Assembly: GCA_015063305.1 (NCBI GenBank)
Contig: SVUJ01000013.1
Location: 1 to 61,627 of the forward strand
Length of the DNA: 61,627 bases
Source: Oscillospiraceae bacterium
GTDB lineage: Bacteria > Bacillota > Clostridia > Oscillospirales > CAG-272
Direction: 5' to 3'
Positions within the stretch are counted from its first letter, which is position 1. Each line of letters starts with the position of its first letter. The notes beneath the pieces are model-generated. The model was not told the origin of the DNA. It did no database searches and saw nothing but the letters and a program-made list of their open reading frames with translations. The position numbers were made by a program, and so were the translations under genes. This document shows positions 32,201 through 47,091 of this stretch, one piece after another.

Positions 32201-32797
32201 TCACCCCCCAAACAGTCCTTCTACAAGACCCGAAAATCCTGTAAAGGAGAGCGCAACTATAGACGCCGCAACAAGTGTTATCGGCAATCCCTTAAATGCT
32301 TCGGGCGGATTTGCACTCTCAAGCCTTGATCTTACTCCCGCGAAAAGCACCATCGCAAGTAAAAATCCAAGTCCGCATCCGAGCGAGTTGACCATCGACT
32401 CTATGAAATTATAGGAATCGTTTATATTGTTGAGGGTAACTCCCAAAACGGCGCAGTTAGTGGTGATAAGCGGAAGATATATTCCAAGGGACGCGTGAAG
32501 CGCGGGCATATACTTCTTAAGTATTATCTCAACGAGCTGTACGAGCGAGGCTATAACGAGGATAAATACTATCGTCCTCATATATTCAAGCCCGCCGCTG
32601 ACGAGTATATAATTATGTATGGGCCAGGTAACCGCCGTTGCAAGCATCATTACGAATATAACAGCCGCCCCCATTCCCGCCGCCTGATTGAGCTTTTTGG
32701 AAACTCCGAGGAAGGGACATATTCCGAGAAATCTTGAAAGCACGTAGTTGTTTACAAGCACAGAGGTCATAAGAATGATAATAAGTGACTTCATCAT
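32201..32797 (-). CDS. rnfA: Rnf complex subunit A
   Basis: A 198-residue integral membrane subunit with six hydrophobic helices. RnfA and RnfE are related and inverted in the membrane. It has the conserved NNYVLSRFLGICPFLGV with a cysteine in helix 1 (residue 27) and TNCAVLGV, the two cysteine sites that hold the intramembrane iron-sulfur cluster with RnfE. ATGA overlap with rnfE; either of two consecutive ATG codons may be used. Confidence 0.95.
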   Translation of the reverse strand: MMKSLIIILMTSVLVNNYVLSRFLGICPFLGVSKKLNQAAGMGAAVIFVMMLATAVTWPIHNYILVSGGLEYMRTIVFILVIASLVQLVEIILKKYMPALHASLGIYLPLITTNCAVLGVTLNNINDSYNFIESMVNSLGCGLGFLLAMVLFAGVRSRLESANPPEAFKGLPITLVAASIVALSFTGFSGLVEGLFGG

Positions 32798-33477
32798 TTG
32801 TCATCGCCCTCCTTTGCTTCGGATACTGCCTTGCCGCACAGGTGCGCCGAGGGACAGCCCTCGCAGCCAAGCTCTCTTTTTTTGCCGCCCTTTGACTTGG
32901 TTATCTTATTTACAAGCGCGATAAGACAGCCAAACACGAAAAATCCGCCGGGGGCAAGACCGAATATCGCTATCGGATTATCGGCAAGTACGGGTATGCT
33001 GATCCCCATCCACGAGCCGCTTCCGAGTATCTCTCTTATACTTGACATAGCGAAGAGCGCAAGTGTAAATCCAACGCCCATACCAAGAGCATCTATTGCC
33101 GAATCGACAACGTTATTCTTACTTGCATACATCTCTGCTCTGCCGAGAATGATACAGTTTACAACTATGAGTGAGAGGAATATTCCAAGCGACTCATAGA
33201 GGTCAGGGGTAAAGGCGTGCATAAGCATCTCTACCATCGTAACGAATCCCGCGATAAGAACTATATAGCAGGGTATTCTTACTTTATCGGGTATAAGGTT
33301 TCTGAGCGCCGATATCGCCATATTGGAGCACAGGAGCACCACCGTTGCCGCAACTCCCATTCCAAGGGCATTCGCCACCGACGTACTGACCGCAAGTGTG
33401 GGACAAGTTCCAAGCACAAGCACGAGAACGGGATTTTCTTTAATTATACCCTTCAAAAAGTTTTGAAGCTTTGTCAT
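32794..33477 (-). CDS. rnfE: Rnf complex subunit E with a cysteine-rich tail
   Basis: A 227-residue membrane subunit with six helices. The cluster cysteines are in VLVLGTCPTLAVS (C25) and VVNCIILGRAE. After the last helix a cytoplasmic tail contains GCEGCPSAHLCGK, a CxxCx5C arrangement, then a charged end. RnfE is part of the electron path through the membrane. Four-base overlaps with rnfG and rnfA. Confidence 0.95.
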   Translation of the reverse strand: MTKLQNFLKGIIKENPVLVLVLGTCPTLAVSTSVANALGMGVAATVVLLCSNMAISALRNLIPDKVRIPCYIVLIAGFVTMVEMLMHAFTPDLYESLGIFLSLIVVNCIILGRAEMYASKNNVVDSAIDALGMGVGFTLALFAMSSIREILGSGSWMGISIPVLADNPIAIFGLAPGGFFVFGCLIALVNKITKSKGGKKRELGCEGCPSAHLCGKAVSEAKEGDDK

Positions 33478-34010
33478 TTTCCCGCCTCCTTTGTCATCTC
33501 GTAAACCTCGAGTGCATCTCTCACCGCCGATATAAATGCGCTTGAAGAAATAGTAGCGCCCGATATGGTGTCAACACCTTCAAGACCGTTCCCTGCTCTC
33601 GAAAATTGATCCAGGAATGCGGGGGTATTGACCTTAGTTCCTATTCCCGAGGTCTCACCGTTGCAGGACACAACGTGACATTTTGTTATCTTTCCCTCGG
33701 CATCAATTCCAACAGCTATGACCATCGGGTTTGAGCTGTCGTATCCCTTTGCGTTGAGCATAACGGCAACTCCCTTGCCCTTGGTTTCAACGTACACAGC
33801 CGTCACGCTCTCGGGAAGCTCAATGCCGTCCTCGACCTTTTCAAAATCCTCTGCCTCGGGAAGCACCGTAAAGAGCGCTTCCTTCTCTGCCTTGGCGTTA
33901 GCCTCGGCTATCATAGGCGACGTAATGCTGTTTATAGCCGCCATAAGCGCCGCTATAACAAGGCAGATAGCCGTGATAACTATTATACTTTTAAGTGAAT
34001 CCTTTTTCAT
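33474..34010 (-). CDS. rnfG: Rnf complex subunit G (covalent FMN)
   Basis: A 178-residue subunit with one N-terminal helix and an extracytoplasmic FMN-binding domain. The covalent attachment site is the threonine of SGATISSSAF near the C-terminus. The ATG at 34010 is preceded by GAGGTGGCGG and removes a 14-residue basic extension that would overlap the end of rnfD. FMN transfer by ApbE is needed; no apbE gene is in the window. Confidence 0.94.
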   Translation of the reverse strand: MKKDSLKSIIVITAICLVIAALMAAINSITSPMIAEANAKAEKEALFTVLPEAEDFEKVEDGIELPESVTAVYVETKGKGVAVMLNAKGYDSSNPMVIAVGIDAEGKITKCHVVSCNGETSGIGTKVNTPAFLDQFSRAGNGLEGVDTISGATISSSAFISAVRDALEVYEMTKEAGK

Positions 34011-34020
34011 AGCCGCCACC

Positions 34021-34953
34021 TCACGCTTTCTTAGTCTTCTTGGCAGCGCCAAAGGGTCTGCGGCGCGTGAGCGCGTTTATGTAAGGAGTAACGATATTCA
34101 TAAGCAGTATCGCGAAGGAAACTCCCTCGGGATAATTGCCGAACACACGGATAAGCACGGTTATGATACCGCATCCAACTCCGAATACCACCTTACCCCA
34201 TGACGTACTCGGCGACGTGGAATAGTCGGTCGCCATAAAGACAGCACCAAGGATAAGTCCGCCCGCAAGCAGATGATACATCGGGTCTTCTCCGAGTGCC
34301 AAGGTAAAGAGGAAGACCGTTCCCATAAATACCACGGGCGTATGCCAGGTAATGACCTTACGCGCTACAAGATAAATACCGCCTATAAGCAGAGTGAGAG
34401 CACAGGTCTCTCCAAGGCTTCCGCCGTGTCTGCCAAGGAACATATCAAGGAGCGAGGGCATATTTCCGTTAGCTCCCATAATAGCGAGGGGAGTTGCTCC
34501 GCTGACCGCATCGTTTATCGGGTCTTTGAAGCTCGACATTGAACCCGCAAAGGATATAAGCAAGACCACTCTCGCGGTTATCGCGGGATTTGCAAAGTTA
34601 CGTCCTATGCCGCCAAAAAGCTGTTTTACAACGACGATAGCAACTATACTTCCGAACGCCGCCTGCCAAAGCGGTATGGTTGAGGGTAGATTGAAGGCGA
34701 GAAGTATTCCCGTTACCACCGCCGAAAGATCCCCGACCGTGACATCTCTTTTGCAGAGCTTCTCGAACGCCCATTCGGATATCACACAGACCGCCACGCA
34801 CAGGGCCGTAACGCCAAGCGCTCTGAAGCCGAATATAATCGCCGATGCGATAAGCGTGGGAATGAGCGCTATCACAACGTCAAGCATTATTCTTCTTGTG
34901 TTGACAGCTGAGCGCACGTGTGGCGCGGGGGAAACGAGCAAGGTATCTTCCAT
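34021..34953 (-). CDS. rnfD: Rnf complex subunit D (covalent FMN)
   Basis: A 310-residue polytopic membrane subunit of the RnfD/NqrB family. The FMN-attachment motif is in DAVSGATPLAIM near residue 150. The ATG at 34953 overlaps the rnfC stop by one base (TGATG) and has GGAGG nine bases upstream; a GTG one codon earlier is the alternative. It begins with the conserved LLVSPAPHVRS. Confidence 0.95.
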   Translation of the reverse strand: MEDTLLVSPAPHVRSAVNTRRIMLDVVIALIPTLIASAIIFGFRALGVTALCVAVCVISEWAFEKLCKRDVTVGDLSAVVTGILLAFNLPSTIPLWQAAFGSIVAIVVVKQLFGGIGRNFANPAITARVVLLISFAGSMSSFKDPINDAVSGATPLAIMGANGNMPSLLDMFLGRHGGSLGETCALTLLIGGIYLVARKVITWHTPVVFMGTVFLFTLALGEDPMYHLLAGGLILGAVFMATDYSTSPSTSWGKVVFGVGCGIITVLIRVFGNYPEGVSFAILLMNIVTPYINALTRRRPFGAAKKTKKA

Positions 34954-36272
34954 CACTTATTTCCTCCCTTCTGTGATATCTGATAATTTCTCAGCATTGT
35001 TTTAGCCATTTTATTTCTCTGAACTATATTTCTCTTTGCAGGGCAAACGTAGCTGCAGCAGCCGCACTCCATACAGAGGTTTACCTTAAGCTTTTGGAGT
35101 CTTGCCGCATCCGATGCCTTATACGCGTCGGATATCTCACAGGGAGAAAGGCCAAACGGACAGCTTTGGGCGCACTTTCCGCATCTTATGCAGGGTGTTA
35201 CCTTGGGCGGAGTTGCCTCTTTCTTTGCAAAGGCAAGTACCGCGTTTGTCTGCTTCAAAACGGGAAAATCGGTGTCAACAGACGCAGTTCCCATCATAGG
35301 TCCGCCAAATATTATCTTTCTGGGCTCTTCGCAAAATCCGCCGCAGAACTCAAAGAGGTCTTTAACGGGCGTTCCTATCGGCGCTATGACGTTCTTAGGC
35401 GTCTTTACGGCAGAGCCGTCCACAGTGATGCACTTCTGGACGAGCGGCATACCCGTGTTTATGTATCTCGCTATACCCGCAAGTGTTGTGCAGTTTATAA
35501 CCAGCACTCCCGCGTCTATCGGCAGCTTTCCCTCTTCGATAACTCTTCCCGTGGTGTGGTAAACAAGCACCTTTTCACCGCCCTGAGGATAGACCGCAGC
35601 AAGCGGCTTCACCTCAGCACCCACGACGTCGGCAAGCGCCGCCCTCATACTCTTTATGCACTCGGGCTTGTTCTTCTCAATACCAACGACCGCGTGTGCC
35701 ACCTCAAGATATTTCATAAGAAGCTTTAATCCGTCCGCCACAAGAGCGGCGTCATCTATCATAGTTCTCGTGTCAGAGGTTATGTAAGGCTCACACTCAG
35801 CACCGTTCACAACTATAGTATCTATTCTCTCTTTATCGGCATCAAGCTTTATAAAGGTCGGAAATCCCGCGCCGCCGAGCCCAACGATACCGCTGTTCTT
35901 TATCGCCTCTACAAGCTCCGCGAGAGAATTGACCGTGGGAGGCTCTATTCCCTCAAACACAGTCTGCTCTCCGTCGCTCTCTATCACGACGGTTTTTATC
36001 GGCGCACCGTTTGAAAAGACTATCTCGTCTATTTTCTTTACCGTACCCGAAACTCCCGAATATACGGGTGAGGACACCTTGGCGTTAGCCGCTCCCACAA
36101 GCTGTCCCACCTTCACCGTATCTCCCGCCTTTACCACAGGCTCTGCGGGAGCGCCTATGTGCATAGACATCGGAAGTATGACAGTTTTGGGCGTATCTAT
36201 TCTTTCGGGCGGCATCTGCGCGGTATTTTTACAGTGCTTCAGATGCACTCCTTTAAGTCTGAATAAGGACAC
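34953..36272 (-). CDS. rnfC: Rnf complex subunit C
   Basis: The NADH-binding peripheral subunit, 439 residues. It has a Complex I 51-kDa-like Rossmann region (GLGGAGFPTFIKL, VNGAECEPYITSD), an SLBB region, and two C-terminal 4Fe-4S motifs, CIRCGKCAQSCPFGLSP and CMECGCCSYVCPAKR. The start is GTG at 36272 with AAGGAGG seven bases before it. First gene of the six-gene operon. Confidence 0.95.
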   Translation of the reverse strand: MSLFRLKGVHLKHCKNTAQMPPERIDTPKTVILPMSMHIGAPAEPVVKAGDTVKVGQLVGAANAKVSSPVYSGVSGTVKKIDEIVFSNGAPIKTVVIESDGEQTVFEGIEPPTVNSLAELVEAIKNSGIVGLGGAGFPTFIKLDADKERIDTIVVNGAECEPYITSDTRTMIDDAALVADGLKLLMKYLEVAHAVVGIEKNKPECIKSMRAALADVVGAEVKPLAAVYPQGGEKVLVYHTTGRVIEEGKLPIDAGVLVINCTTLAGIARYINTGMPLVQKCITVDGSAVKTPKNVIAPIGTPVKDLFEFCGGFCEEPRKIIFGGPMMGTASVDTDFPVLKQTNAVLAFAKKEATPPKVTPCIRCGKCAQSCPFGLSPCEISDAYKASDAARLQKLKVNLCMECGCCSYVCPAKRNIVQRNKMAKTMLRNYQISQKGGNK

Positions 36273-37378: not shown

Positions 37379-37407
37379 TTGACAAATCTTGATTTAGGTG
37401 ATAAACT
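37379..37407 (+). promoter_or_regulatory. Promoter of the aromatic amino acid operon
   Basis: TTGACA (37379-37384), 17-bp spacer, TAAACT (37402-37407). A short inverted repeat CTAACT-CCAT-AGTTAG (37406-37421) lies on the expected start site and may be an operator or a 5' stem. Confidence 0.8.
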
Positions 37408-37437
37408 AACTCCATAGTTAGAAAAAAGGAGTAATCT

Positions 37438-37500
37438 ATGATGAACGCCGTTAACTTCGCTAACAAGTTTTATTACCTTTATTTTTATTGTAACCAATAA
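37438..37500 (+). CDS. Phe/Tyr-rich leader peptide of the aromatic operon
   Basis: A 20-codon reading frame with AAGGAG six bases before its ATG, located between the promoter and an intrinsic terminator. It reads MMNAVNFANKFYYLYFYCNQ, so seven of its 20 residues are Phe (7, 11, 16) or Tyr (12, 13, 15, 17), with six of them packed into residues 11-17. Such a clustered run of control codons is the hallmark of ribosome-mediated attenuation, as in pheA, pheST and trp leaders. Stalling at low Phe-tRNA or Tyr-tRNA would prevent the terminator at 37556-37599. The peptide itself is not expected to have a function. Confidence 0.88.
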   Translation: MMNAVNFANKFYYLYFYCNQ

Positions 37501-37506
37501 GATAAG

Positions 37507-37583
37507 GGTGCTTTTTGTTGCGGATTTACGTTTCATCTGTTTTCTATATAGAAAAAATGAAGCCTTTCCGGTGAAAAACACCG
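37507..37583 (+). promoter_or_regulatory. Candidate antiterminator pairing
   Basis: By hand, GGTGCTTTTT (37507-37516) can pair with AAAAACACC (37575-37583) with one bulged base. That would consume the loop and the start of the 3' arm of the terminator. TTTTTGTTGCG (37512-37522) can alternatively pair with the leader-coding CGCTAACAAG (37459-37468). These are the 2:3 and 1:2 pairings expected for an attenuator. No energies were computed. Confidence 0.45.
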
Positions 37584-37599
37584 AAGGCTTCATTTTTTC
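37556..37599 (+). terminator. Attenuator terminator of the aromatic operon
   Basis: TGAAGCCTT-TC-CGGTG pairs with CACCG-AAGGCTTCA around GAAAAA... and is followed by TTTTTTCTTTT. It lies between the leader peptide and the DAHP synthase ATG (37646), so it must be bypassed for operon expression. Confidence 0.9.
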
Positions 37600-37645
37600 T
37601 TTTATTAAGCACTAAATCAAGTAACTTATATTAAGGAGAACAACA

Positions 37646-38644
37646 ATGATTGCTGTAATTAAAAAAGGAACTTCGGATAAACAATTAGAGAATCTTACCT
37701 CCTGGCTTCGCGCTCAGGGACTTGACATACACCTCTCACGCGGAAGCACACATACCATAGTCGGTCTTGTGGGCGACACATCAAAGATAGATGCCGAGCT
37801 TCTCGAAAGCCTTGAGATAGTTGAATCTGTAAAGCGCATAAGTGAACCCTTCAAGAGCGCAAACAGAAAATTCCACCCCGATGACACAGTCATCAACGTG
37901 GGAAATACCTCTGTGGGCGGTGATATCTTTGCGATTATCGCGGGCCCCTGCTCTGTTGAGAGTGAGGAGCAGGTACTTTCTATCGCGCACTCTGTGAAGG
38001 CGGCGGGAGCTACGATGCTCCGCGGCGGCGCATTCAAGCCCCGCACATCTCCTTACGATTTTCAGGGTCTTAAGGCTGACGGTATAGACTATCTGATAAA
38101 GGCAAAGAAGGAGACCGGACTTCCCATAGTCACCGAGATAATGAACGCAAACCACCTCGAGCTCTTCGAAGATGTCGACGTTATACAGGTAGGCGCGAGA
38201 AATATGCAGAACTTTGAGCTTCTCAAGGAGCTTGGACGTACGAAGAAGACTATACTTCTCAAGCGCGGTCTTGCAAACACTCTTAAAGAGCTTCTTATGT
38301 CCGCCGAGTACATAATGGCGGGCGGCAACGAAAACATCATACTCTGTGAGAGAGGCATCAGAACCTTTGATACATACACGAGAAACACACTTGACCTCTC
38401 TGCTGTTCCTATGCTCAAGGAACTCTCGCATCTCCCTGTTGTGGTAGACCCCTCTCACGCTACGGGACTTTCCAGACTTGTTAAGCCCATGGCTCTTGCG
38501 GCTACGGCGGCAGGCGCTCACGGTCTTATGATAGAGGTCCACAACGACCCCAAGCACGCACTGTGCGACGGAGCGCAGTCCCTCACCCCCGAGGCGTTTG
38601 CCGATGTTTGTGCATCTGTAAAGCGCGTACTTGATGTTATCTGA
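37646..38644 (+). CDS. aroF: 3-deoxy-7-phosphoheptulonate synthase (DAHP synthase)
   Basis: Condenses PEP and erythrose 4-phosphate, the entry to the shikimate pathway. The 332-residue protein is of type I-beta: an N-terminal ferredoxin-like regulatory domain (about 1-70) followed by the KDO8P/DAHP barrel with [76 protein letters not shown] and [10 protein letters not shown]. The N-terminal domain is a known allosteric site for Phe/Tyr in related enzymes. First gene behind the attenuator, so both transcription and activity are probably feedback-controlled. A GGAG site precedes the ATG. Confidence 0.96.
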
Positions 38645-38662: not shown

Positions 38663-39496
38663 ATGAAGGTTGGAATATGCGGTCTTGGCCTTATAGGCGG
38701 ATCTATGGCAAAGGCATACAAGGCGGCGGGACACACCGTTTACGGCTTTGATAAAAACGCCTCGGCGCTTGGCTTTGCTCAGCTTTCGGGAATATGCGAT
38801 GCTGAGCTTGGCGATGACAATCTGCGCGAATGCGACCTGATACTCATAGCGCTCTATCCTTTTGCGGCGATCGAATATCTCCGCGATATAGCGCCAAAAC
38901 TTGCCTCTTCCAAGACAGTGGTGATCGACCTGTGCGGAACGAAAAAGCAGATATGCGATATAGGCTTTGCCCTTGCAAAAGAATATAACTTTACCTTCGT
39001 TGGCGGACATCCTATGGCGGGTACTCAGTATTCGGGAATAAAATACGCCAAGGAAAATCTTTTCAAGAACGCGCCTATGGTGCTCGTTCCGAGCGTTTGC
39101 GACGATATATTTTTCTTGGAGAAAATAAAAAATCTCCTCGCCCCCGCTATGTTCGGCAAGATAACCGTGACCACGGCGGAAAAGCACGACAGAATGATCG
39201 CGTTCACCTCTCAGCTTGCACACGTGGTATCGAACGCCTACGTCAAAAGTCCCACGGCTCAGGAGCACAAGGGATTCTCGGCGGGAAGCTACAAGGATCT
39301 TACCCGCGTGGCTTGGCTGAACGAATATATGTGGAGCGAGCTTTTCCTTGAGAATAAAGAGCCTCTTCTCTTTGAGATAGACAGTATAATAAATTCTCTG
39401 TCTGAATACAGAGATGCTATCGCGGCGGACGACGCCGAAAGGCTGACATCTCTTTTGCGCGACGGACGCGTGGCAAAAGAGCTTGTGGACGGCTGA
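38663..39496 (+). CDS. tyrA: Prephenate dehydrogenase
   Basis: Oxidatively decarboxylates prephenate to 4-hydroxyphenylpyruvate for tyrosine. The 277-residue protein has GLGLIGGSMAKAYK at the N-terminus for NAD(P), VVIDLCGTKKQIC, and the catalytic GGHPMAGTQYSG. It has neither a chorismate mutase nor an ACT domain, so it is the single-domain form. It is 18 bp after DAHP synthase. Confidence 0.94.
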   Translation: MKVGICGLGLIGGSMAKAYKAAGHTVYGFDKNASALGFAQLSGICDAELGDDNLRECDLILIALYPFAAIEYLRDIAPKLASSKTVVIDLCGTKKQICDIGFALAKEYNFTFVGGHPMAGTQYSGIKYAKENLFKNAPMVLVPSVCDDIFFLEKIKNLLAPAMFGKITVTTAEKHDRMIAFTSQLAHVVSNAYVKSPTAQEHKGFSAGSYKDLTRVAWLNEYMWSELFLENKEPLLFEIDSIINSLSEYRDAIAADDAERLTSLLRDGRVAKELVDG

Positions 39497-39514: not shown

Positions 39515-40570
39515 ATGAAGACGATAAAAGTCAAGGCTTCAACTGAATATGAGGTCATTATAGATAAGGGGATACTCTCAAAAGTGGGAGAGCTTTCTCT
39601 GCCGATATGCGGCGCTTGCTCTGCTTGTATCGTTACAGACGACAACGTAGACCCGCTTTATTCGAGCATTGTAGAGAGTTCACTTGAGAAGAGCGGATTT
39701 AGTGTTATAAAATTCGTTATACCTCACGGAGAGGCTTCAAAGAATACTACCTCTCTTATCTCTCTTCTTGAGTTTTTAGCCGAGAATAAGATAACCCGAA
39801 GCGACTGTATTTTTGCGCTCGGCGGCGGAGTAGTTGGCGACCTTGCGGGATTTGCCGCGGCTGTATATCTCAGAGGAATAAAGTTTATTCAGCTCCCCAC
39901 CACTCTTTTGGCGGCAGTTGATTCCTCGGTTGGGGGCAAGACCGCCGTTGACCTTATTGCGGGAAAAAATCTTGCGGGTGCTTTTCATCAGCCCTCGCTC
40001 GTTATATGCGACTATACCACGCTCGACACACTCTCTGACGAGATATTCGCCGACGGTTGTGCCGAGGTGATAAAATACGGAATAATAAACGACCGTCCGC
40101 TATTTGAACTCGCAAAGCGCGGAATACGTGAGAATATTGAAGAAATAATCGCCGCTTGCGTGCTCAACAAGAGCCGTATCGTAGCCGAGGACGAGTTTGA
40201 CACGGGAATGCGTCAGCTCCTCAATTTGGGTCACACGGTAGGACACGCCATAGAGGCGCGCTCAGAATTTGCCATCTCGCACGGAAGTGCGGTCGCAATG
40301 GGAATAGCTATAGTTTCCCGCGCCGCTACTACGATGGGCATCTGTCCCGAAGCTGACCTTGCCGAGATAATCGATATTTTGCGAGGCGCATCTCTCCCGA
40401 CCGAGTGTCCCTACTCAGCCGAGGAGCTTTGTGAGATAGCGCTCAACGATAAAAAACGAACAGGTGACACGATATCCCTTGTCGTTCCCTACTCTATAGG
40501 CGACACAAGGCTTTATAAGATAAAAGTCGGCGAGATCTGCGGCTTTATCGGGAAAGGACTTAAAAAATGA
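39515..40570 (+). CDS. aroB: 3-dehydroquinate synthase
   Basis: Cyclises DAHP to 3-dehydroquinate with NAD and a divalent metal. The 351-residue protein has the diagnostic LGGGVVGDLAGFAAAVYLRG and QLPTTLLAAVDSSVGGKTAVD segments, plus metal ligands in EVIKYGII and the LGHTVGHAIEA histidines. GGAGG lies before the ATG. Its stop overlaps the aroA start by four bases. Confidence 0.96.
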   Translation: MKTIKVKASTEYEVIIDKGILSKVGELSLPICGACSACIVTDDNVDPLYSSIVESSLEKSGFSVIKFVIPHGEASKNTTSLISLLEFLAENKITRSDCIFALGGGVVGDLAGFAAAVYLRGIKFIQLPTTLLAAVDSSVGGKTAVDLIAGKNLAGAFHQPSLVICDYTTLDTLSDEIFADGCAEVIKYGIINDRPLFELAKRGIRENIEEIIAACVLNKSRIVAEDEFDTGMRQLLNLGHTVGHAIEARSEFAISHGSAVAMGIAIVSRAATTMGICPEADLAEIIDILRGASLPTECPYSAEELCEIALNDKKRTGDTISLVVPYSIGDTRLYKIKVGEICGFIGKGLKK

Positions 40571-41838
40571 AGGTTACTTTGACCCCCTCTGCTCCCAGAG
40601 GTAAAATAAAAGCTATAGCCTCAAAGTCTGCCGCGCACAGACTTCTTATCTGCGCCGCATTCGCAGACAGACCCACCGAGCTTGTCTGCGAGGAGATAAA
40701 CGAGGATATATCGGCAACCGTGCGCTGTCTTAACGCGCTCGGCGCTAAGATAAGCCGCAAGGATAACTTGTTTATAGTACTTCCCGTGAAAAATCTCAGA
40801 CAGAGTCCCACACTTGACTGCGGTGAGAGCGGCTCTACGATGAGATTTTTAGTTCCCGTTGTAGCGGCTCTCGGTTGCGGCGCGTCATTCAAAATGTCGG
40901 GCAGACTGCCGAGCCGTCCCCTTTCTCCGCTTCGCGAGGAGCTTGAGCGCCACGGGATCACTTTTTCCGAGGCAGGCTCAAATCCCCTTACAATCGAGGG
41001 AAAGATAGGTGCGGGAGAATACCGCATACGCGGTGACGTATCATCGCAGTTTATAAGCGGACTTCTCTTCGCGCTTTCTCTGCTTGAGGGTGAGAGCCGT
41101 ATAATCATTGAGGGGAAGACCGAATCCGCACCCTATATAAATATGACGCTTGATGCTCTTTACGAGTTTGGCGCTGAGCCCGAGCGCTGTGATGACGGAT
41201 TTGTAATATGTTGCGGCGGAAATCTGAGATCCCCCGAAAAGCTCACCGTTGAGGGCGACTGGTCAGGTGCGGCGTTTGCTCTGTGCGCGGGTGCGATATC
41301 AAAGGGAGCAAAGGTAAGTGTCTGCTCTCTTGACCCCGAATCAACTCAGGGCGACAGGGCGATAATAGAGCTTCTTGTTCGTTTCGGCGCTGACGTGCGC
41401 CGCAAGGGCGACTGCTTCACCGTTTGCGGCGGCGAGCTGTGCGGTATGGAAATAGACGCCTCTAACATTCCCGACCTTGTGCCGATACTCTCGGTGGTCG
41501 CCGCGGCGGCAAAGGGACAGACCGTTATATACGGCGCGTCAAGGCTCAAAATAAAAGAAAGCGATAGACTGTCCACAGTCACCGAGATGCTCACCGCTCT
41601 CGGTGCGGATATAAGTAAGACCGATGACGGCCTTATAATAAACGGCGGCGCTCCCCTGCGCGGCGGCGAAGTGTCTTCGTGCGGCGACCATAGAATAGCT
41701 ATGAGCGCGGCGATCGCGGCAACTATCGCCGAGGGCGAGGTAACTATCCGCTCTGCCGAGGCGGCGGCGAAGTCCTACCCTACATTCTGGGACGATATCG
41801 CGGCTCTCGGTGTTTCAATTATAAAAGAAGAGGATTGA
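40567..41838 (+). CDS. aroA: 3-phosphoshikimate 1-carboxyvinyltransferase (EPSP synthase)
   Basis: Transfers enolpyruvyl from PEP to shikimate 3-phosphate. The 423-residue protein has the N-terminal lysine region IASKSAAHRLLI, the CGESGSTMRFLVPV PEP-site segment, IRGDVSSQFISGLLFAL, the LKIKESDRLSTV motif and GDHRIAMSAAI near the C-terminus. The P-loop segment here reads ESGSTMRFL where many enzymes have NSGTTMRLL; I have not assigned it to a glyphosate class. ATGA overlap with aroB. Confidence 0.96.
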   Translation: MKVTLTPSAPRGKIKAIASKSAAHRLLICAAFADRPTELVCEEINEDISATVRCLNALGAKISRKDNLFIVLPVKNLRQSPTLDCGESGSTMRFLVPVVAALGCGASFKMSGRLPSRPLSPLREELERHGITFSEAGSNPLTIEGKIGAGEYRIRGDVSSQFISGLLFALSLLEGESRIIIEGKTESAPYINMTLDALYEFGAEPERCDDGFVICCGGNLRSPEKLTVEGDWSGAAFALCAGAISKGAKVSVCSLDPESTQGDRAIIELLVRFGADVRRKGDCFTVCGGELCGMEIDASNIPDLVPILSVVAAAAKGQTVIYGASRLKIKESDRLSTVTEMLTALGADISKTDDGLIINGGAPLRGGEVSSCGDHRIAMSAAIAATIAEGEVTIRSAEAAAKSYPTFWDDIAALGVSIIKEED

Positions 41839-41841
41839 ACT

Positions 41842-42930
41842 ATGTCCACTACTTACGGTAAAAATCTGAAGATAACTATATACGGCGGCTCACACGACAG
41901 CGAGATAGGGGTAATTGCCGAAGGACTTCCCGAGGGATTTAGACCCGACCTCGCGGCACTTGAGAGCTTTATGCAAAGACGCGCGCCCGGAAGGAACGCC
42001 CACTCAACCGCAAGAAAAGAGCCCGACAAGCCTGTTTTCCTCAGCGGTATAGACGAGGACGGCGCGCTTAACGGTGATACTCTCCACGCCGTGATATACA
42101 ATACAAATCAGCGCTCGGCGGATTACGCAAGAGAGTCATTTATCCCCCGCCCCTCTCACGCCGATTTTGCGGCGAGAATGAAATACGGAGAGCGTGTTGA
42201 CCTTCGCGGCGGCGGCCATTTTTCGGGAAGACTTACCGCGCCTATGTGTATCATAGGCGGAATATGCTTGCAGTATCTTTCCTCGCTTGGCATACACGTG
42301 GGCGCTCACGTATACTGTGTTGAAAATGTATACGACACGCCTTTCGATAAGGTAAACCTTGACAAGGAAACCCTACTTTCTCCGCAGAACTCCGACTTCC
42401 CCGTTCTTAACGGCGATGCGGGAGCTGAAATGCGCGAGGCTATAGAGAGGGCAAGACTTGACGGAGATTCGGTTGGCGGTATAGTTGAATGCGCCGCTAT
42501 CGGTCTGCCCGCAGGACTTGGAGAGCATATGTTCGACGGAATCGAGAACCGAATATCGGGAATAGTTTTCGGTATTCCCGCCGTAAAGGGCATAGAATTC
42601 GGAAACGGATTTGAATGCGCTCATATCAGGGGCTCTGAGAACAATGACCCCTTCCGCACCGACGGCACTCGCGTATACACCGAAACAAACAACGCGGGCG
42701 GTATCCTTGGCGGAATGAGCAGCGGTATGCCGCTTGTATTCCGCGCCGCTATGAAGCCCACCCCCTCGATATTCAAGGAGCAAAACAGCGTTGATATGAA
42801 TACTATGACAAATCAGTCCTTCACTATCGTGGGCAGACACGACCCTTGCGTTGCTATACGCGCCGTACCCGTATTCGAGGCGGCTGCCGCTATAGCCATA
42901 ACAGATCTACTATTTGACAGGAACAACTAA
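41842..42930 (+). CDS. aroC: Chorismate synthase
   Basis: An FMN-dependent lyase that makes chorismate from EPSP. The 362-residue protein has RRAPGRNAHSTARKEPD, RPSHADFAARMKYG and the C-terminal GRHDPCVAIRAVPV. The usual RGGGRSSGRETA reads RGGGHFSGRLTAP here, a variant I recall from some Clostridia rather than a damaged site. It is three bases after aroA. Confidence 0.95.
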   Translation: MSTTYGKNLKITIYGGSHDSEIGVIAEGLPEGFRPDLAALESFMQRRAPGRNAHSTARKEPDKPVFLSGIDEDGALNGDTLHAVIYNTNQRSADYARESFIPRPSHADFAARMKYGERVDLRGGGHFSGRLTAPMCIIGGICLQYLSSLGIHVGAHVYCVENVYDTPFDKVNLDKETLLSPQNSDFPVLNGDAGAEMREAIERARLDGDSVGGIVECAAIGLPAGLGEHMFDGIENRISGIVFGIPAVKGIEFGNGFECAHIRGSENNDPFRTDGTRVYTETNNAGGILGGMSSGMPLVFRAAMKPTPSIFKEQNSVDMNTMTNQSFTIVGRHDPCVAIRAVPVFEAAAAIAITDLLFDRNN

Positions 42931-42933
42931 ACT

Positions 42934-44145
42934 ATGAAATTAGGTCCAAAGCACACCAAGCTTGCAGGGTATACGGGGTATCTCACACAAGCTCTTATTA
43001 TCAATTTCCCTCCCCTGCTTTTTCTCACATTTATAAATACCTACAATCTTTCGATATCAAGCATAAGTGTCCTCATAACCGTAAGCTTTATGGTACAGCT
43101 TGCGGTTGACGCTTTTGCCGCAAAATTTTCAAGCAAGCTCAATATCAGAGCGACTGTAGTGACAGCGCTTATCCTCGCGACCGTTGGAATAACGGGATAT
43201 TCCTATCTCCCCGAGATAATCCCCTCTCCGTTTGTCGGTCTGCTTATATGTACCGTAGTGTCAAGCATAGGTGCGGGATTTGTTGAGGTGCTGGTAAGCC
43301 CGATAATCGAGGCTTGTCCTACCGACGGCAAAAGCGCCGCGATGAGTATCCTTCACTCCTTTTACGCTTGGGGTCACGCGGGAATAATTATTCTATCTAC
43401 CGTTTTCTTTGGCGTATTCGGTCTTGAAAATTGGAGAATACTCGCCTGTCTGTGGACTATAATTCCTCTGGTCGGCGCGGTCGCTTTTATGATAGTTCCC
43501 ATCTATACGCTCGAAGGCGACAAGCCTGTCCAAAATACAAAAGTAAAAAAGCGCTCCCCCTTCCGCTCGGGAATATTTCTTGTTTTCTTCACAATTATGG
43601 TGTGCGCGGGGGCGGCTGAGCAAGCGATGGCTCAATGGGCGTCCACCTTTGCCGAGTCGGGACTCGGCGTATCGAAGGCAACGGGAGATATCCTCGGACC
43701 TTGCGCTTTCGCTCTTCTTATGGGCGTTGCGCGTGTTATATACGCCAAATTCAGTGACAGACTTGACCTTCAAAAGGCTATATATCTATCAAGCTTAGTT
43801 TGTATTGCGGCATATCTCGTTGCCGCGCTTTCGCCAAATGCCGTTATCTCCCTTGTCGGCTGCGCACTTTGCGGTCTTTCAACGGGTATAATGTGGCCCG
43901 GAACGTATAGCCTTGCGGCGCAAAAGATACCCCGCGTTGGCATACAGATATTTGCGCTTCTCGCACTTGGCGGCGACCTCGGCTGTGCGTTAGGCCCTGC
44001 CGCCGCGGGTTGGATAGCCGAGCTTTTCGGCAACGACCTGAGGATCTCATTTGCCATCTCGGCAATATTCCCCTTGATAATGGTAATTCTCCTTCTCGCA
44101 AATAAAAAGGACAGAAGAAAGGATATTGAAAATGGAAATAACTGA
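42934..44145 (+). CDS. MFS transporter embedded in the aromatic operon
   Basis: A 403-residue major facilitator with about twelve hydrophobic helices and a charged central loop (EGDKPVQNTKVKKRSPF, about residues 190-207). Sequence such as WASTFAESGLGVSKATGDILGP and YAKFSDRLDLQKAIY fits the FucP/sugar-like branch, but the substrate cannot be read from it. It lies three bases after aroC and overlaps pheA by 14 bases, so it is an integral part of the operon. Export or import of an aromatic amino acid, shikimate or quinate is possible; this is inference only. Confidence 0.85.
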   Translation: MKLGPKHTKLAGYTGYLTQALIINFPPLLFLTFINTYNLSISSISVLITVSFMVQLAVDAFAAKFSSKLNIRATVVTALILATVGITGYSYLPEIIPSPFVGLLICTVVSSIGAGFVEVLVSPIIEACPTDGKSAAMSILHSFYAWGHAGIIILSTVFFGVFGLENWRILACLWTIIPLVGAVAFMIVPIYTLEGDKPVQNTKVKKRSPFRSGIFLVFFTIMVCAGAAEQAMAQWASTFAESGLGVSKATGDILGPCAFALLMGVARVIYAKFSDRLDLQKAIYLSSLVCIAAYLVAALSPNAVISLVGCALCGLSTGIMWPGTYSLAAQKIPRVGIQIFALLALGGDLGCALGPAAAGWIAELFGNDLRISFAISAIFPLIMVILLLANKKDRRKDIENGNN

Positions 44146-45277
44146 ACTCAGAAATCAAATAGACCAAATAGATGCCCAGCTCGTTGAACTCTTTAAGAAG
44201 CGAATGGACGTTGCCGCCAATGTTGCTGAATATAAGCGCGAGAACAACATGAAGGTGCTTGATGCCTCGCGTGAGCGAGCTCTCCTTCAGAAGGTATCCG
44301 AGCTTTCGGGCGAGGAGTTCGAGGATTACACAAGAACTCTTTACTCGACCATTCTCGACCTCTCTCGCTCCTATCAGCATAAGCGCTTGGGCACGGGCTC
44401 TGAGCTCTCCGCTATCATAGATACCGCACAGACGAACACCCCAAAAATATTCCCCGAAAGAGCTACCGTTGCCTGTCAGGGAGTTGAGGGCGCGTACTCT
44501 CAGATAGCCACAGAAAGACTTTTCAAAGCCCCCGCTATAATGTTCTTTTCAAGCTTTGAGAGCGTTTTCTCGGCTATTGAAAAGGGCCTTTGCAAGTACG
44601 GAGTGCTCCCTATCGAGAACAGCACCGCGGGCTCTGTAAAGCAGGTATACGACCTCATGGTCAGCCGTAAATTCAAGATAGTCCGCTCGGTAAGAATAAA
44701 AATAGACCATAATCTTCTCGCAAACAACGGCGCGAAGCTTTCGGATATAAAGGAAATTTTCTCGCACGAGCAGGCGATAAATCAATGCTCGGATTTCCTC
44801 GCTTCTCTGGGCGAGGGTGTAAAGATAACGCGTGTTGAGAATACCGCCGCCGCGGCGCGTATGGTTGCAGAATCGGGCAGAAGTGACGTTGCGTCTATTT
44901 CCTCTCGCTCCTGCGCTTCGCAGTACGGTCTTTCGGTGGTGTCTCCCGCTATACAGAACAACGGAAACAACCACACCCGCTTTATTTGCATATCAAACGA
45001 GCTTGAGATATATCCCGGTGCTGACCGCACGAGCCTTATGCTCGTAACTCCCCACAGACCCGGTGCGCTTTACAAGATCCTCTCGCGCTTCAACGCGCTT
45101 GGAATAAACCTTCTCAAGCTTGAATCCCGTCCCCTGCCCGACCGCGATTTTGAATTTATGTTCTACTTTGATATTGAGGCATCGGTCTACTCCTCAAAGC
45201 TCCCCCAGCTCCTTGCCGAGCTTGAGCAGGAGTGTGAGGAATTCAACTATCTCGGCTCGTATTCGGAGGTCGTGTGA
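44132..45277 (+). CDS. pheA: Bifunctional chorismate mutase/prephenate dehydratase
   Basis: Converts chorismate to prephenate and then phenylpyruvate. The 381-residue protein has an AroQ-type mutase domain (about 1-90: LRNQIDQIDAQLVELFKKRM), the dehydratase domain (about 110-285: ACQGVEGAYSQIATERLF, GVLPIENSTAGSV, NHTRFICI) and a C-terminal ACT domain with the Phe-binding RPGALYKIL and LKLESRP motifs, so feedback inhibition by Phe is expected. The ATG at 44132 has AAAGGA upstream and lies inside the end of the MFS gene. Confidence 0.96.
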   Translation: MEITELRNQIDQIDAQLVELFKKRMDVAANVAEYKRENNMKVLDASRERALLQKVSELSGEEFEDYTRTLYSTILDLSRSYQHKRLGTGSELSAIIDTAQTNTPKIFPERATVACQGVEGAYSQIATERLFKAPAIMFFSSFESVFSAIEKGLCKYGVLPIENSTAGSVKQVYDLMVSRKFKIVRSVRIKIDHNLLANNGAKLSDIKEIFSHEQAINQCSDFLASLGEGVKITRVENTAAAARMVAESGRSDVASISSRSCASQYGLSVVSPAIQNNGNNHTRFICISNELEIYPGADRTSLMLVTPHRPGALYKILSRFNALGINLLKLESRPLPDRDFEFMFYFDIEASVYSSKLPQLLAELEQECEEFNYLGSYSEVV

Positions 45278-46518
45278 TGCGCTCGGGATACGGCAATATG
45301 AAGTGCGGACTTATAGGTGAGCATCTCGGACACAGCTTCTCCCCTCTGATACATAACGAGCTTGCAGACTATTCATACGAGCTGTGTGAGCTCGACCCCT
45401 CGGAGCTTGAGGGATTTTTGAAGAGCGGAATGCTTGATGCCTTTAACGTGACTATTCCATACAAAAAACAGGTAATGCCCTACCTTGACGAGATATCCCC
45501 CGAGGCGCTATCTATCGGCTCGGTGAATACCGTGGTGAAGGACAAAGAGGGCAAGCTCCACGGATATAACACCGACTATTTTGGCTTTAGCCATATGGTA
45601 GAACTGTCGGGCATAGATATAAGTGGCAAAAAGGCGATAGTCTTTGGCAGAGGCGGCGCGGCTCTGACCGTCTGCGCGGTGCTCCGCGACAGAGGTGTGC
45701 GTGAATGGGTGGTGATAGGAAGTAAGGACAACACCCCCGAAAACCTCGCAAAGCACGCCGACGCCGATATCGTTATCAATGCTACCCCCGCGGGAATGTA
45801 CCCAAACAACGGAGCATCTCCCGCAGACCTATCTCTCTTTCCGAAATGCCGTTTGGTTCTCGACCTTATCTTCAATCCCGCGCGTACCGCGCTGATACTT
45901 GATGCCGAGCGCAGAGGGATACCCTATATGAACGGACTTCCGATGCTCGTGGCTCAGGCGGCAAAGGCTTTTGAATATTTTACAGGCGGAGAATTTGAAG
46001 AGGGCGCTATCGAGCGCATCACTTCGCTGATATCCGAAAAAACGGTAAATATAGTGCTTGTGGGTATGCCCGGTTGCGGAAAAAGCACGGTAGGCAAGCT
46101 TATAGCGGATATCCTTGGCAGAAGCTTTTTCGATGCCGATGACGAATTCACGAAAATGCACGGTATATCCCCCGCCGAATGTATAAAGGCATTTGGCGAG
46201 GATAGCTTCAGAGAGCTTGAGCACAAGACGCTTTGTGAGCTTGGAAAGCTCAGCTCGGCGGTTATTGCCACGGGAGGCGGCGCGGTAACACGGGAATTCA
46301 ATTATGACCCGTTGCACCAGAACGGCTGTATCTTCTTCATTGAGCGTGAGCTTAGCCGACTTGCAAGGGGCGGCAGACCCCTCTCGCTGAGTACCACACC
46401 CGAGGAGATGTATCGGACAAGAATTGATTCATACCGTCGCTTTGCAGACGTCACTGTAGTCAGCAACGAGATAATACAGGACACCGCGAATAAGATAATA
46501 TCCGAATTTAAAAGATAA
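45277..46518 (+). CDS. aroE-aroK: Shikimate dehydrogenase-shikimate kinase fusion
   Basis: A 413-residue fusion of two consecutive-pathway enzymes. Residues about 8-255 are AroE: GEHLGHSFSPLIHNEL, FNVTIPYKKQV, SIGSVNTVVK, FGRGGAALTVCAVL for NADP, and the C-terminal GLPMLVAQAAKAFEYFTG. Residues about 260-413 are AroK: P-loop VGMPGCGKSTVGKL, the shikimate-binding FFDADDEF and ATGGGAVTR, and the lid/R region ARGGRPLS. The start at 45277 overlaps the pheA stop (TGATG) and has GGAGG seven bases before it. No internal start with a good ribosome site was seen between the halves. Confidence 0.95.
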   Translation: MRSGYGNMKCGLIGEHLGHSFSPLIHNELADYSYELCELDPSELEGFLKSGMLDAFNVTIPYKKQVMPYLDEISPEALSIGSVNTVVKDKEGKLHGYNTDYFGFSHMVELSGIDISGKKAIVFGRGGAALTVCAVLRDRGVREWVVIGSKDNTPENLAKHADADIVINATPAGMYPNNGASPADLSLFPKCRLVLDLIFNPARTALILDAERRGIPYMNGLPMLVAQAAKAFEYFTGGEFEEGAIERITSLISEKTVNIVLVGMPGCGKSTVGKLIADILGRSFFDADDEFTKMHGISPAECIKAFGEDSFRELEHKTLCELGKLSSAVIATGGGAVTREFNYDPLHQNGCIFFIERELSRLARGGRPLSLSTTPEEMYRTRIDSYRRFADVTVVSNEIIQDTANKIISEFKR

Positions 46519-46531
46519 CAGGAGAAAACAA

Positions 46532-46960
46532 ATGAAGGTACTTGTTATAAACGGCCCTAATCTTAATATGCTGGGCATACGTGAGCCCGACATTTACGGC
46601 GCGCAGAACTTTGCGTCACTTGAGAGCTTCATAAAGTCCTCGGCGGCAGAGCTTGGAGTTGACGTAACTCTCTTTCAATCGAACCACGAGGGCGAGATAG
46701 TTGACGTTATACAGTCGGCATACGGCGTATTTGACGGCATAGTTATAAACCCCGCCGCCTATACGCACACGAGCGTGGCAATACTTGACGCGCTCAAGGC
46801 TGTTGGGATACCGACCGCCGAGGTCCACCTCTCTGATATCAATTCAAGAGAGGAATTCAGACGCTTCTCGTATATTTCCCTTGCCGCAAAAACGACCATC
46901 TGCGGTCTTGGATTTGAAGGCTACCGCAAGGCGCTTGAGTTCCTTTGCGAAAATATATGA
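46532..46960 (+). CDS. aroQ: 3-dehydroquinate dehydratase, type II
   Basis: Dehydrates 3-dehydroquinate to 3-dehydroshikimate. The 142-residue dodecameric-type enzyme has the N-terminal INGPNLNMLGIREPDIYG with the catalytic tyrosine, FQSNHEGEIVD, VINPAAYTHTSVA and EVHLSDINSREEFR. Last gene of the operon, completing all seven shikimate steps, followed by a terminator. Confidence 0.96.
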   Translation: MKVLVINGPNLNMLGIREPDIYGAQNFASLESFIKSSAAELGVDVTLFQSNHEGEIVDVIQSAYGVFDGIVINPAAYTHTSVAILDALKAVGIPTAEVHLSDINSREEFRRFSYISLAAKTTICGLGFEGYRKALEFLCENI

Positions 46961-46962
46961 AT

Positions 46963-46992
46963 AAAAGGGCGAGTATCCTCGCCCTTTTATTT
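46963..46992 (+). terminator. Terminator of the aromatic operon
   Basis: AAAAGGGCGAG pairs with CTCGCCCTTTT around a TATC loop and is followed by ATTTTG. Confidence 0.9.
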
Positions 46993-47091
46993 TGTCATTT
47001 TAATTTTTCAATCACATATTTTTCAAGTTTATATCCACATTAAAAATCGAAAAATAAATATACAAAAAGAAATTATAAAGGAGAAATAGAT

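Follow-up and report, generated by a model that had tools for sequence, protein, structure and literature searches.

The window, i.e., the whole stretch of DNA analysed (61,627 nucleotides), is contig C3 of a host assembly of 1.58 Mb in 22 contigs. Annotation with Pfam showed the presence of a nine-gene operon of aromatic amino acid synthesis, running from aroF to aroQ, and of a leader region in front of it, which contains a promoter-like site, a short open reading frame (ORF) and segments predicted to fold into alternative hairpins (Table 1). No gene for a Phe/Tyr aminotransferase was detected among the nine Pfam-named genes; with this reservation, the term 'complete aromatic operon', used in the original prediction for this DNA, is fair as far as Phe and Tyr are concerned. 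Among the best 80 relatives listed by similarity of the AroF protein, the nearest named ones are mostly MAGs of Clostridia, Oscillospiraceae and Ruminococcus, and many of the 80 originate from herbivore guts. Elsewhere in the window, its beginning (180-581, Rfam) contains two tRNA genes and a pair of Gut-1 RNAs, one on each strand, and the genes at 32794-36272 of the minus strand, judging by eye from the ORF translations, resemble a part of an Rnf electron-transport cluster.

Table 1. Features of the aroF leader region and of the downstream aromatic operon in the window
Feature	Position	Strand	Basis
Promoter-like site TTGACA-17-TAAACT	37379-37407	+	Sequence; extended -10 TG
Shine-Dalgarno AAAGGAG of leader ORF	37425-37431	+	Sequence
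Leader ORF MMNAVNFANKFYYLYFYCNQ, 20 codons, ATG ATG start, TAA stop	37438-37500	+	Sequence; kind kept at 24/24 genus loci
Predicted 1:2 protector hairpin	37440-37537	+	Folding, pair counts
Putative regulatory codons 11-17 (F Y Y L Y F Y)	37468-37488	+	Codon tally, 24 genus loci
Predicted 2:3 antiterminator hairpin	37521-37570	+	Folding, pair counts
Predicted 3:4 intrinsic terminator, T run 37593-37603	37550-37603	+	Local fold -29.0 kcal/mol
Shine-Dalgarno of aroF	37633-37639	+	Sequence
aroF, DAHP synthase (DAHP_synth_1 with ferredoxin-like domain)	37646-38644	+	Pfam
tyrA, prephenate dehydrogenase	38663-39496	+	Pfam
aroB, 3-dehydroquinate synthase	39515-40570	+	Pfam
aroA, EPSP synthase	40567-41838	+	Pfam
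aroC, chorismate synthase	41842-42930	+	Pfam
MFS transporter within operon, between aroC and pheA	42934-44145	+	Pfam MFS_1
pheA, chorismate mutase-prephenate dehydratase, start codon uncertain	44126-45277	+	Pfam CM_2 and PDT
aroE-aroK fusion, shikimate dehydrogenase + shikimate kinase	45274-46518	+	Pfam
aroQ, type II dehydroquinase	46532-46960	+	Pfam
Terminator-like hairpin at operon end, 15 pairs then TGTCATTTTA	46959-47002	+	Hairpin search

The promoter-like site is represented by the hexamers TTGACA (37379-37384) and TAAACT (37402-37407), separated by the 17-nt spacer that had been predicted; a promoter scan gave 10/12 matches, and a TG is located one base 5' of the -10 hexamer. The leader ORF contains Phe/Tyr codons at residues 7, 11, 12, 13, 15, 16 and 17, and the proposed 20-codon leader with seven such codons, six of them within codons 11-17, behind a Shine-Dalgarno sequence, is thus borne out by the sequence. 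As in leader-peptide attenuators, the first gene is preceded by a short ORF with its own ribosome-binding site, rich in codons for the products of the operon, and an intrinsic terminator lies between this ORF and the first gene. Local folding agrees with the strong terminator suggested in front of aroF; its stem spans 37550-37600 with a core at 37557-37593, and the T run is interrupted by one C. The terminator was not listed by a simple terminator scan, perhaps because of an internal bulge, and was recovered by folding and by a separate terminator search. The fold of the whole leader RNA (37408-37645) has a value of -70.6 versus a mean of -39.6 for dinucleotide shuffles (z -7.15), which was reached in 0/200 of them.

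A search of 40 genomes located aroF in 36, among them 24 of the 25 genomes of the same genus, that of the window counted. A leader ORF with an FYYLYFY-like block is present in all 24 aroF upstream regions of the genus, and in most of them TTGACA and a TAAACT-like hexamer, recognised by eye, precede it. The seven block codons of these 24 loci are represented by Y (96), F (43), L (23), S (4), T (1) and C (1), with Phe and Tyr interchanging at the same positions. Of the 23 other genus loci, 22 have a tblastn match for tyrA. Between the leader and aroF, a terminator below -8 kcal/mol was found in 24/24 loci of the genus and in 113 of the 117 leader loci of the genus and the order, no strong terminator being found by the same search at the other 4/117.

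In the order, an aroF match was detected in 181 of 295 genomes. For the 112 order loci analysed, namely, 32 from the initial searches and 80 of 90 further picked places, incomplete matches, less strong places and a part of the second copies were omitted. By the criterion of a Shine-Dalgarno-preceded ORF of 9-42 residues with at least five Phe/Tyr in eight, a leader is present in 93 of the 112 upstream regions, versus 0/112 reverse complements and 6/1120 shuffles, and occurs in 19 of the 21 sampled families; 19 of the 112 loci contain no leader of the Phe/Tyr kind by this criterion. Among the named genomes, some of which duplicate unnamed organisms, 53 of 78 usable loci qualify and 0 reverse complements do (80 were fetched, one without a recognisable aroF and one too short). 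For the class, 19 of 28 loci qualify, with one reverse complement (29 fetched, one too short), and for more distant class loci, spread over families, 14 of 40, again with one reverse complement. In the named and class sets, a few aroF starts came from automatic placement and seem wrong (L211, L246); this can do no more than blur the counts. The cultured Anaerotignum neopropionicum DSM 3847 (L218) is among the carriers of a leader. Accordingly, the leader arrangement is frequent within the order and becomes sparser with distance. Loss of the Phe/Tyr codons or of the terminator in relatives, named in the original prediction as counter-evidence, is not the pattern found: both are present at every genus locus, and the leader at most order loci.

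When 190 residue pairs were tested by the same approach, Phe+Tyr led in the order set (93 loci, next pair 44), in the named genomes (53, next 26, n = 78), in the class loci (19, next 15, n = 28) and in the distant class loci (13, next 8, n = 40). In the genus set, owing to the conserved Leu codon, Phe+Tyr and Leu+Tyr are level at 24 loci each. Both Phe and Tyr are contained in all 117 leaders of the genus and the order, the 936 block residues of which include Y 376, F 345 and W 1.

Folding of the window leader predicts a 1:2 hairpin, whose 3' strand, 37495-37537, is paired to the start region as well as to the FANK and Phe/Tyr codons; the pairing of 37459-37468 with 37512-37522 proposed earlier overlaps its folded helix 37456-37467 with 37514-37524. 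In an alignment of 24 sequences, 82.5% of the cells are paired, versus at most 58.0% in slid controls; 11 pairs carry changes on both sides, and the covariation score was reached by 0/500 shuffles. The hairpin is above shuffles in percentage paired, double-changed pairs and covariation score, and above every slid control in percentage paired and covariation score. In a partner swap, the own pairing was better in 72 of 81 deduplicated order sequences, a result reached by 0/5000 permutations, and the duplex is in the best 5% of shuffles at 24/24 genus and 40/89 other loci. The pair counts support a putative protector hairpin built on the Phe/Tyr codons, with the regulatory codons placed in the strand that would pair with the antiterminator strand.

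The predicted 2:3 hairpin, with an energy of -13.7 kcal/mol in the window leader, consists of the helices 37521-37524 with 37567-37570 and 37530-37536 with 37557-37563, and of the apical stem 37540-37555. In the alignment of 24 sequences, 72.2% of its cells are paired (slid controls, at most 52.5%), 10 pairs are double-changed, and the covariation score was reached by 7/500 shuffles; as for 1:2, the hairpin is above shuffles in these three measures and above every slid control in percentage paired and covariation score. The number of further pair types is not above shuffles (256/500 as high), and slid control -2 has more double-changed cells (23 vs. 21). The partner swap favoured the own pairing in 73 of the 81 deduplicated order sequences (0/5000 permutations), and the duplex is in the best 5% of shuffles at 39 of the 89 other loci. 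Formation of this hairpin would exclude the terminator, as expected for an attenuator, and in the genus its duplex is better than shuffles at 1/24 loci only. An outer helix between the switch strand and the 5' arm of the terminator was seen by eye in 23 of the 24 genus folds, with the exception of L015, and varies in step across the genus (CGGA/UCCG, CGAG/CUCG and CGGG/CUCG in per-sequence folds).

The 2:3 pairing put forward in the original prediction, 37507-37516 with 37575-37583, has conserved complementarity, with 92.8% of the cells paired and 63.0% in the best slid control. It failed the swap test (own pairing better in 5/24), shows no double-changed pairs and no covariation, and was dropped as the main antiterminator; the hairpin 37521-37570 most likely plays this role.

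Alignment of the switch strands of 85 sequences revealed, by eye, matched changes (CTTTTAC/GTAAAAG, CTTTACC/GGTAAGG and CTATTAC/GTAATAG) and a common core near GGTAAGG..TTTGTGTTGC, which together suggest shared ancestry. A fixed pattern of this core missed 41 of the 117 leader loci. At the 76 loci with the pattern, the leader stop is located before the core in 40 and after it in 36; at the latter, a ribosome at the stop codon would itself mask the switch strand, and this arrangement probably represents a second layout of the same attenuator. In the leaders L052, L056, L059 and the like, the ORF extends through the switch strand and has endings like KVKAIRAA.

For the terminator itself, the genus alignment gives pair counts that do not clearly exceed shuffles, and the covariation of slid controls is equal or higher; several rows of the alignment look misaligned there. 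Folding with and without a stalled ribosome, proposed as a check in the original prediction, gave the expected direction without a mask, the stalled value being above the free one at 19/24 genus and 67/89 other loci; the stalled value was clearly above shuffled switch strands at only 2/24 and 20/89, respectively. With a masked ribosome the contrast was weak. In the window, the 5' arm is paired at 0.63-0.71 for stalls at the aromatic codons, 0.58 at the stop codon and 0.62 at codon 2; the aromatic-stall mean exceeds the stop position at 15/24 genus and 61/89 other loci, and the codon-2 stall at only 13/24 and 38/89. Since such folding assumes equilibrium and the switch acts co-transcriptionally, the comparative evidence was given more weight.

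No match for Chorismate_bind (TrpE/PabB) or TrpA was detected in the host genome; the absence of these genes is likely, not certain, because the genome is 94.6% complete. Chorismate_bind was found in 1 of 25 genomes of the genus and in 82 of 295 genomes of the order, some of them incomplete; set beside the 181 order genomes with an aroF match, entry into the tryptophan branch seems often to be absent. Dependence of Trp codons in leaders on trpE, considered as a candidate relation, was unsupported (4/26 genomes with trpE vs. 4/67, Fisher p 0.21), and the presence of the leader across the order shows no dependence on trpE (p 0.27). Therefore, loss of tryptophan genes is the setting of the leader rather than its demonstrated cause. 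A T-box at G000:C7:131825-132070 (L003) precedes the NCBIfam-named trpB in the host genome, which is without a TrpA or Chorismate_bind match; indole salvage controlled by the T-box is a possible role of this trpB.

It is highly probable that the Phe/Tyr branch of aromatic synthesis is controlled here by a ribosome-mediated (leader-peptide) transcription attenuator, also because the operon makes these amino acids and because the genome is without Chorismate_bind and TrpA matches. Comparative evidence supports the core of the original prediction, namely, a leader-peptide attenuator with Phe/Tyr regulatory codons in front of an aromatic operon. In Firmicutes, amino-acid genes are usually switched by T-boxes, and TRAP-regulated leaders contain an array of GAG/UAG repeats for TRAP binding. 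Six T-box matches, four of them over the cut-off, were found by Rfam in the host genome itself, in front of the NCBIfam-named valS, ilvA, trpB, ilvB, cysE and thrS, which fits control of the operon by a T-box or another tRNA- or metabolite-binding riboswitch, the small ORF being incidental. This is very improbable, as the leader is conserved as residues, Shine-Dalgarno sequence and frame, and Rfam gave no match, T-box included, in the leader region at gathering. At the relaxed threshold all matches were far below gathering, with no T-box among them; of the amino-acid operon leader families, Thr_leader reached 16.7 bits versus 55 (E 0.86), and no phenylalanine leader was listed up to E 1. A T-box signature that finds all six T-boxes of the host genome, which replaced an earlier, too narrow pattern, matched 1 of 284 aroF upstream regions (0/24 genus, 0/112 order, 0/79 named, 0/29 and 1/40 class). 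The only match, L278 of the class, was confirmed by Rfam. Rfam found no match up to E 0.05 at the 19 leaderless order loci, none at gathering at 20 leader-bearing order loci, and, among the 40 distant class loci, none in 20 and this one T-box in the other 20. At the loci covered, with the exception of L278, both searches speak against replacement of the leader by a T-box at aroF. The argument that a leader peptide is unusual for Firmicutes aromatic genes, part of the original prediction, is accordingly weak for aroF, given the leader counts in the order and the class.

That the ORF encodes a small protein acting in trans, with the terminator as a constitutive brake, has a precedent in the trans-acting leader peptide peTrpL, on record in the accessible part of PMC7298713. 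Across families, however, it is the density of Phe/Tyr that is kept, with little other sequence (by eye), and the ORF codons pair with the downstream switch strand, so we consider this reading far-fetched. Another possibility, which we regard as rather unlikely, is that the same attenuator senses a single amino acid, most likely Phe, and that the Tyr codons serve RNA pairing. The Corynebacterium glutamicum leader AroR contains Phe-Tyr-Phe and responds to limitation by Phe, not by Tyr, as far as described in the available text of PMC11802643; moreover, since the codons of strand 1 engage the switch strand in pairing, part of the codon choice would be RNA-driven. The excess of Tyr over Phe in the genus block, the interchange of the two and the retention of both in every leader of the genus and the order speak against it. 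Judging from the codons, charging of both Phe and Tyr may be sensed, as the original prediction inferred.

The leader-peptide attenuator would act as follows. Transcription probably starts near 37414, as judged from the promoter, and a ribosome would then load on the leader ORF. When Phe and Tyr are plentiful, the ribosome would reach the stop codon fast; the strand up to 37537 could then pair with the 5' portion of the ORF that the ribosome has passed, or with the complete ORF once the ribosome is released. This 1:2 pairing would hide the left arm of the antiterminator, the terminator would form, and RNA polymerase would stop before aroF. When the supply of charged tRNA-Phe or tRNA-Tyr runs low, the ribosome would stall in codons 11-17 and cover strand 1; the freed 37521-37555 would pair with the terminator 5' arm (37550-37570) and block the terminator, and aroF-tyrA-aroB-aroA-aroC-MFS-pheA-aroEK-aroQ would be transcribed. 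The parts of this system are present and conserved, and both hairpins have comparative support; the stall, termination itself and the sufficiency of either amino acid are what we infer from them.

Genes of amino acid metabolism in Firmicutes are usually described as T-box territory, and the host genome combines T-box matches at six other genes with a leader peptide at the Phe/Tyr operon. The occurrence of leaders in nearly all sampled families of the order provides a simple annotation rule for many Clostridia, the 117 leader examples are a resource on the co-evolution of leader codons and switch RNA, and the aroF leader is a natural candidate for a two-amino-acid sensor. A broader reading is put forward tentatively, at somewhat less than an even chance: in much of the class Clostridia, the entry step of the shikimate pathway may be governed by one ancestral family of attenuators, the switch strand of which is conserved near GGTAAGG..TTTGTGTTGC. 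As a joint sensor, it would open the chorismate-to-Phe/Tyr operon when either of the two charged tRNAs, tRNA-Phe or tRNA-Tyr, is scarce, and it would coexist with T-boxes for other amino acids and with a frequent lack of tryptophan genes. If so, hosts without tryptophan synthesis would tune the shikimate pathway to the demand for Phe and Tyr alone.

A leader in front of the aroF operon of C. glutamicum, AroR, was reportedly described by Neshat et al. in 2014. For this leader, the accessible text of PMC11802643 indicates that the availability of Phe, not of Tyr, matters. AroR resembles the leader considered here in having Phe and Tyr codons before a DAHP synthase gene and in ribosome-mediated attenuation; it differs in belonging to Actinobacteria and in its Phe-Tyr-Phe motif (PMC11802643, same part), the leader of the window having six Phe/Tyr among seven block codons and being Tyr-rich. 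The motif uORFC-13-1, also located before aroF, likewise combines a uORF with Phe codon(s), a terminator and predicted attenuation, but in the portion of PMC8632094 consulted it is restricted to Acholeplasma and environmental sequences, with 24 representatives and at least one Phe, and Tyr is not named there. Two candidate uORFs at shikimate genes, reported in 2019 in a study of five genomes, likewise contain Phe and Tyr; compared by description in the available part of PMC6429828, they may or may not belong to the same family, of which the uORF of Fig. 6b may be a member. No description of a Clostridia-wide Phe/Tyr leader at aroF was found in a literature search mostly covering papers outside subscription, partly in excerpts; within these sources, it is the breadth in Clostridia that was not found in print, the mechanism and close precedents being known. 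Ordinary leader-peptide attenuators occur in T-box users, as the Firmicutes His leaders, sensing histidine instead, illustrate (excerpts of PMC9413887, PMC2965389). By analogy, the mechanism would work like the classic leader-peptide attenuators pheL and trpL. In Escherichia coli, according to the accessible text of PMC11802643, pheL provides leader-peptide attenuation before the chorismate mutase-prephenate dehydratase gene; it senses Phe and precedes pheA, whereas in the window one leader precedes the genes from aroF through pheA and aroQ.
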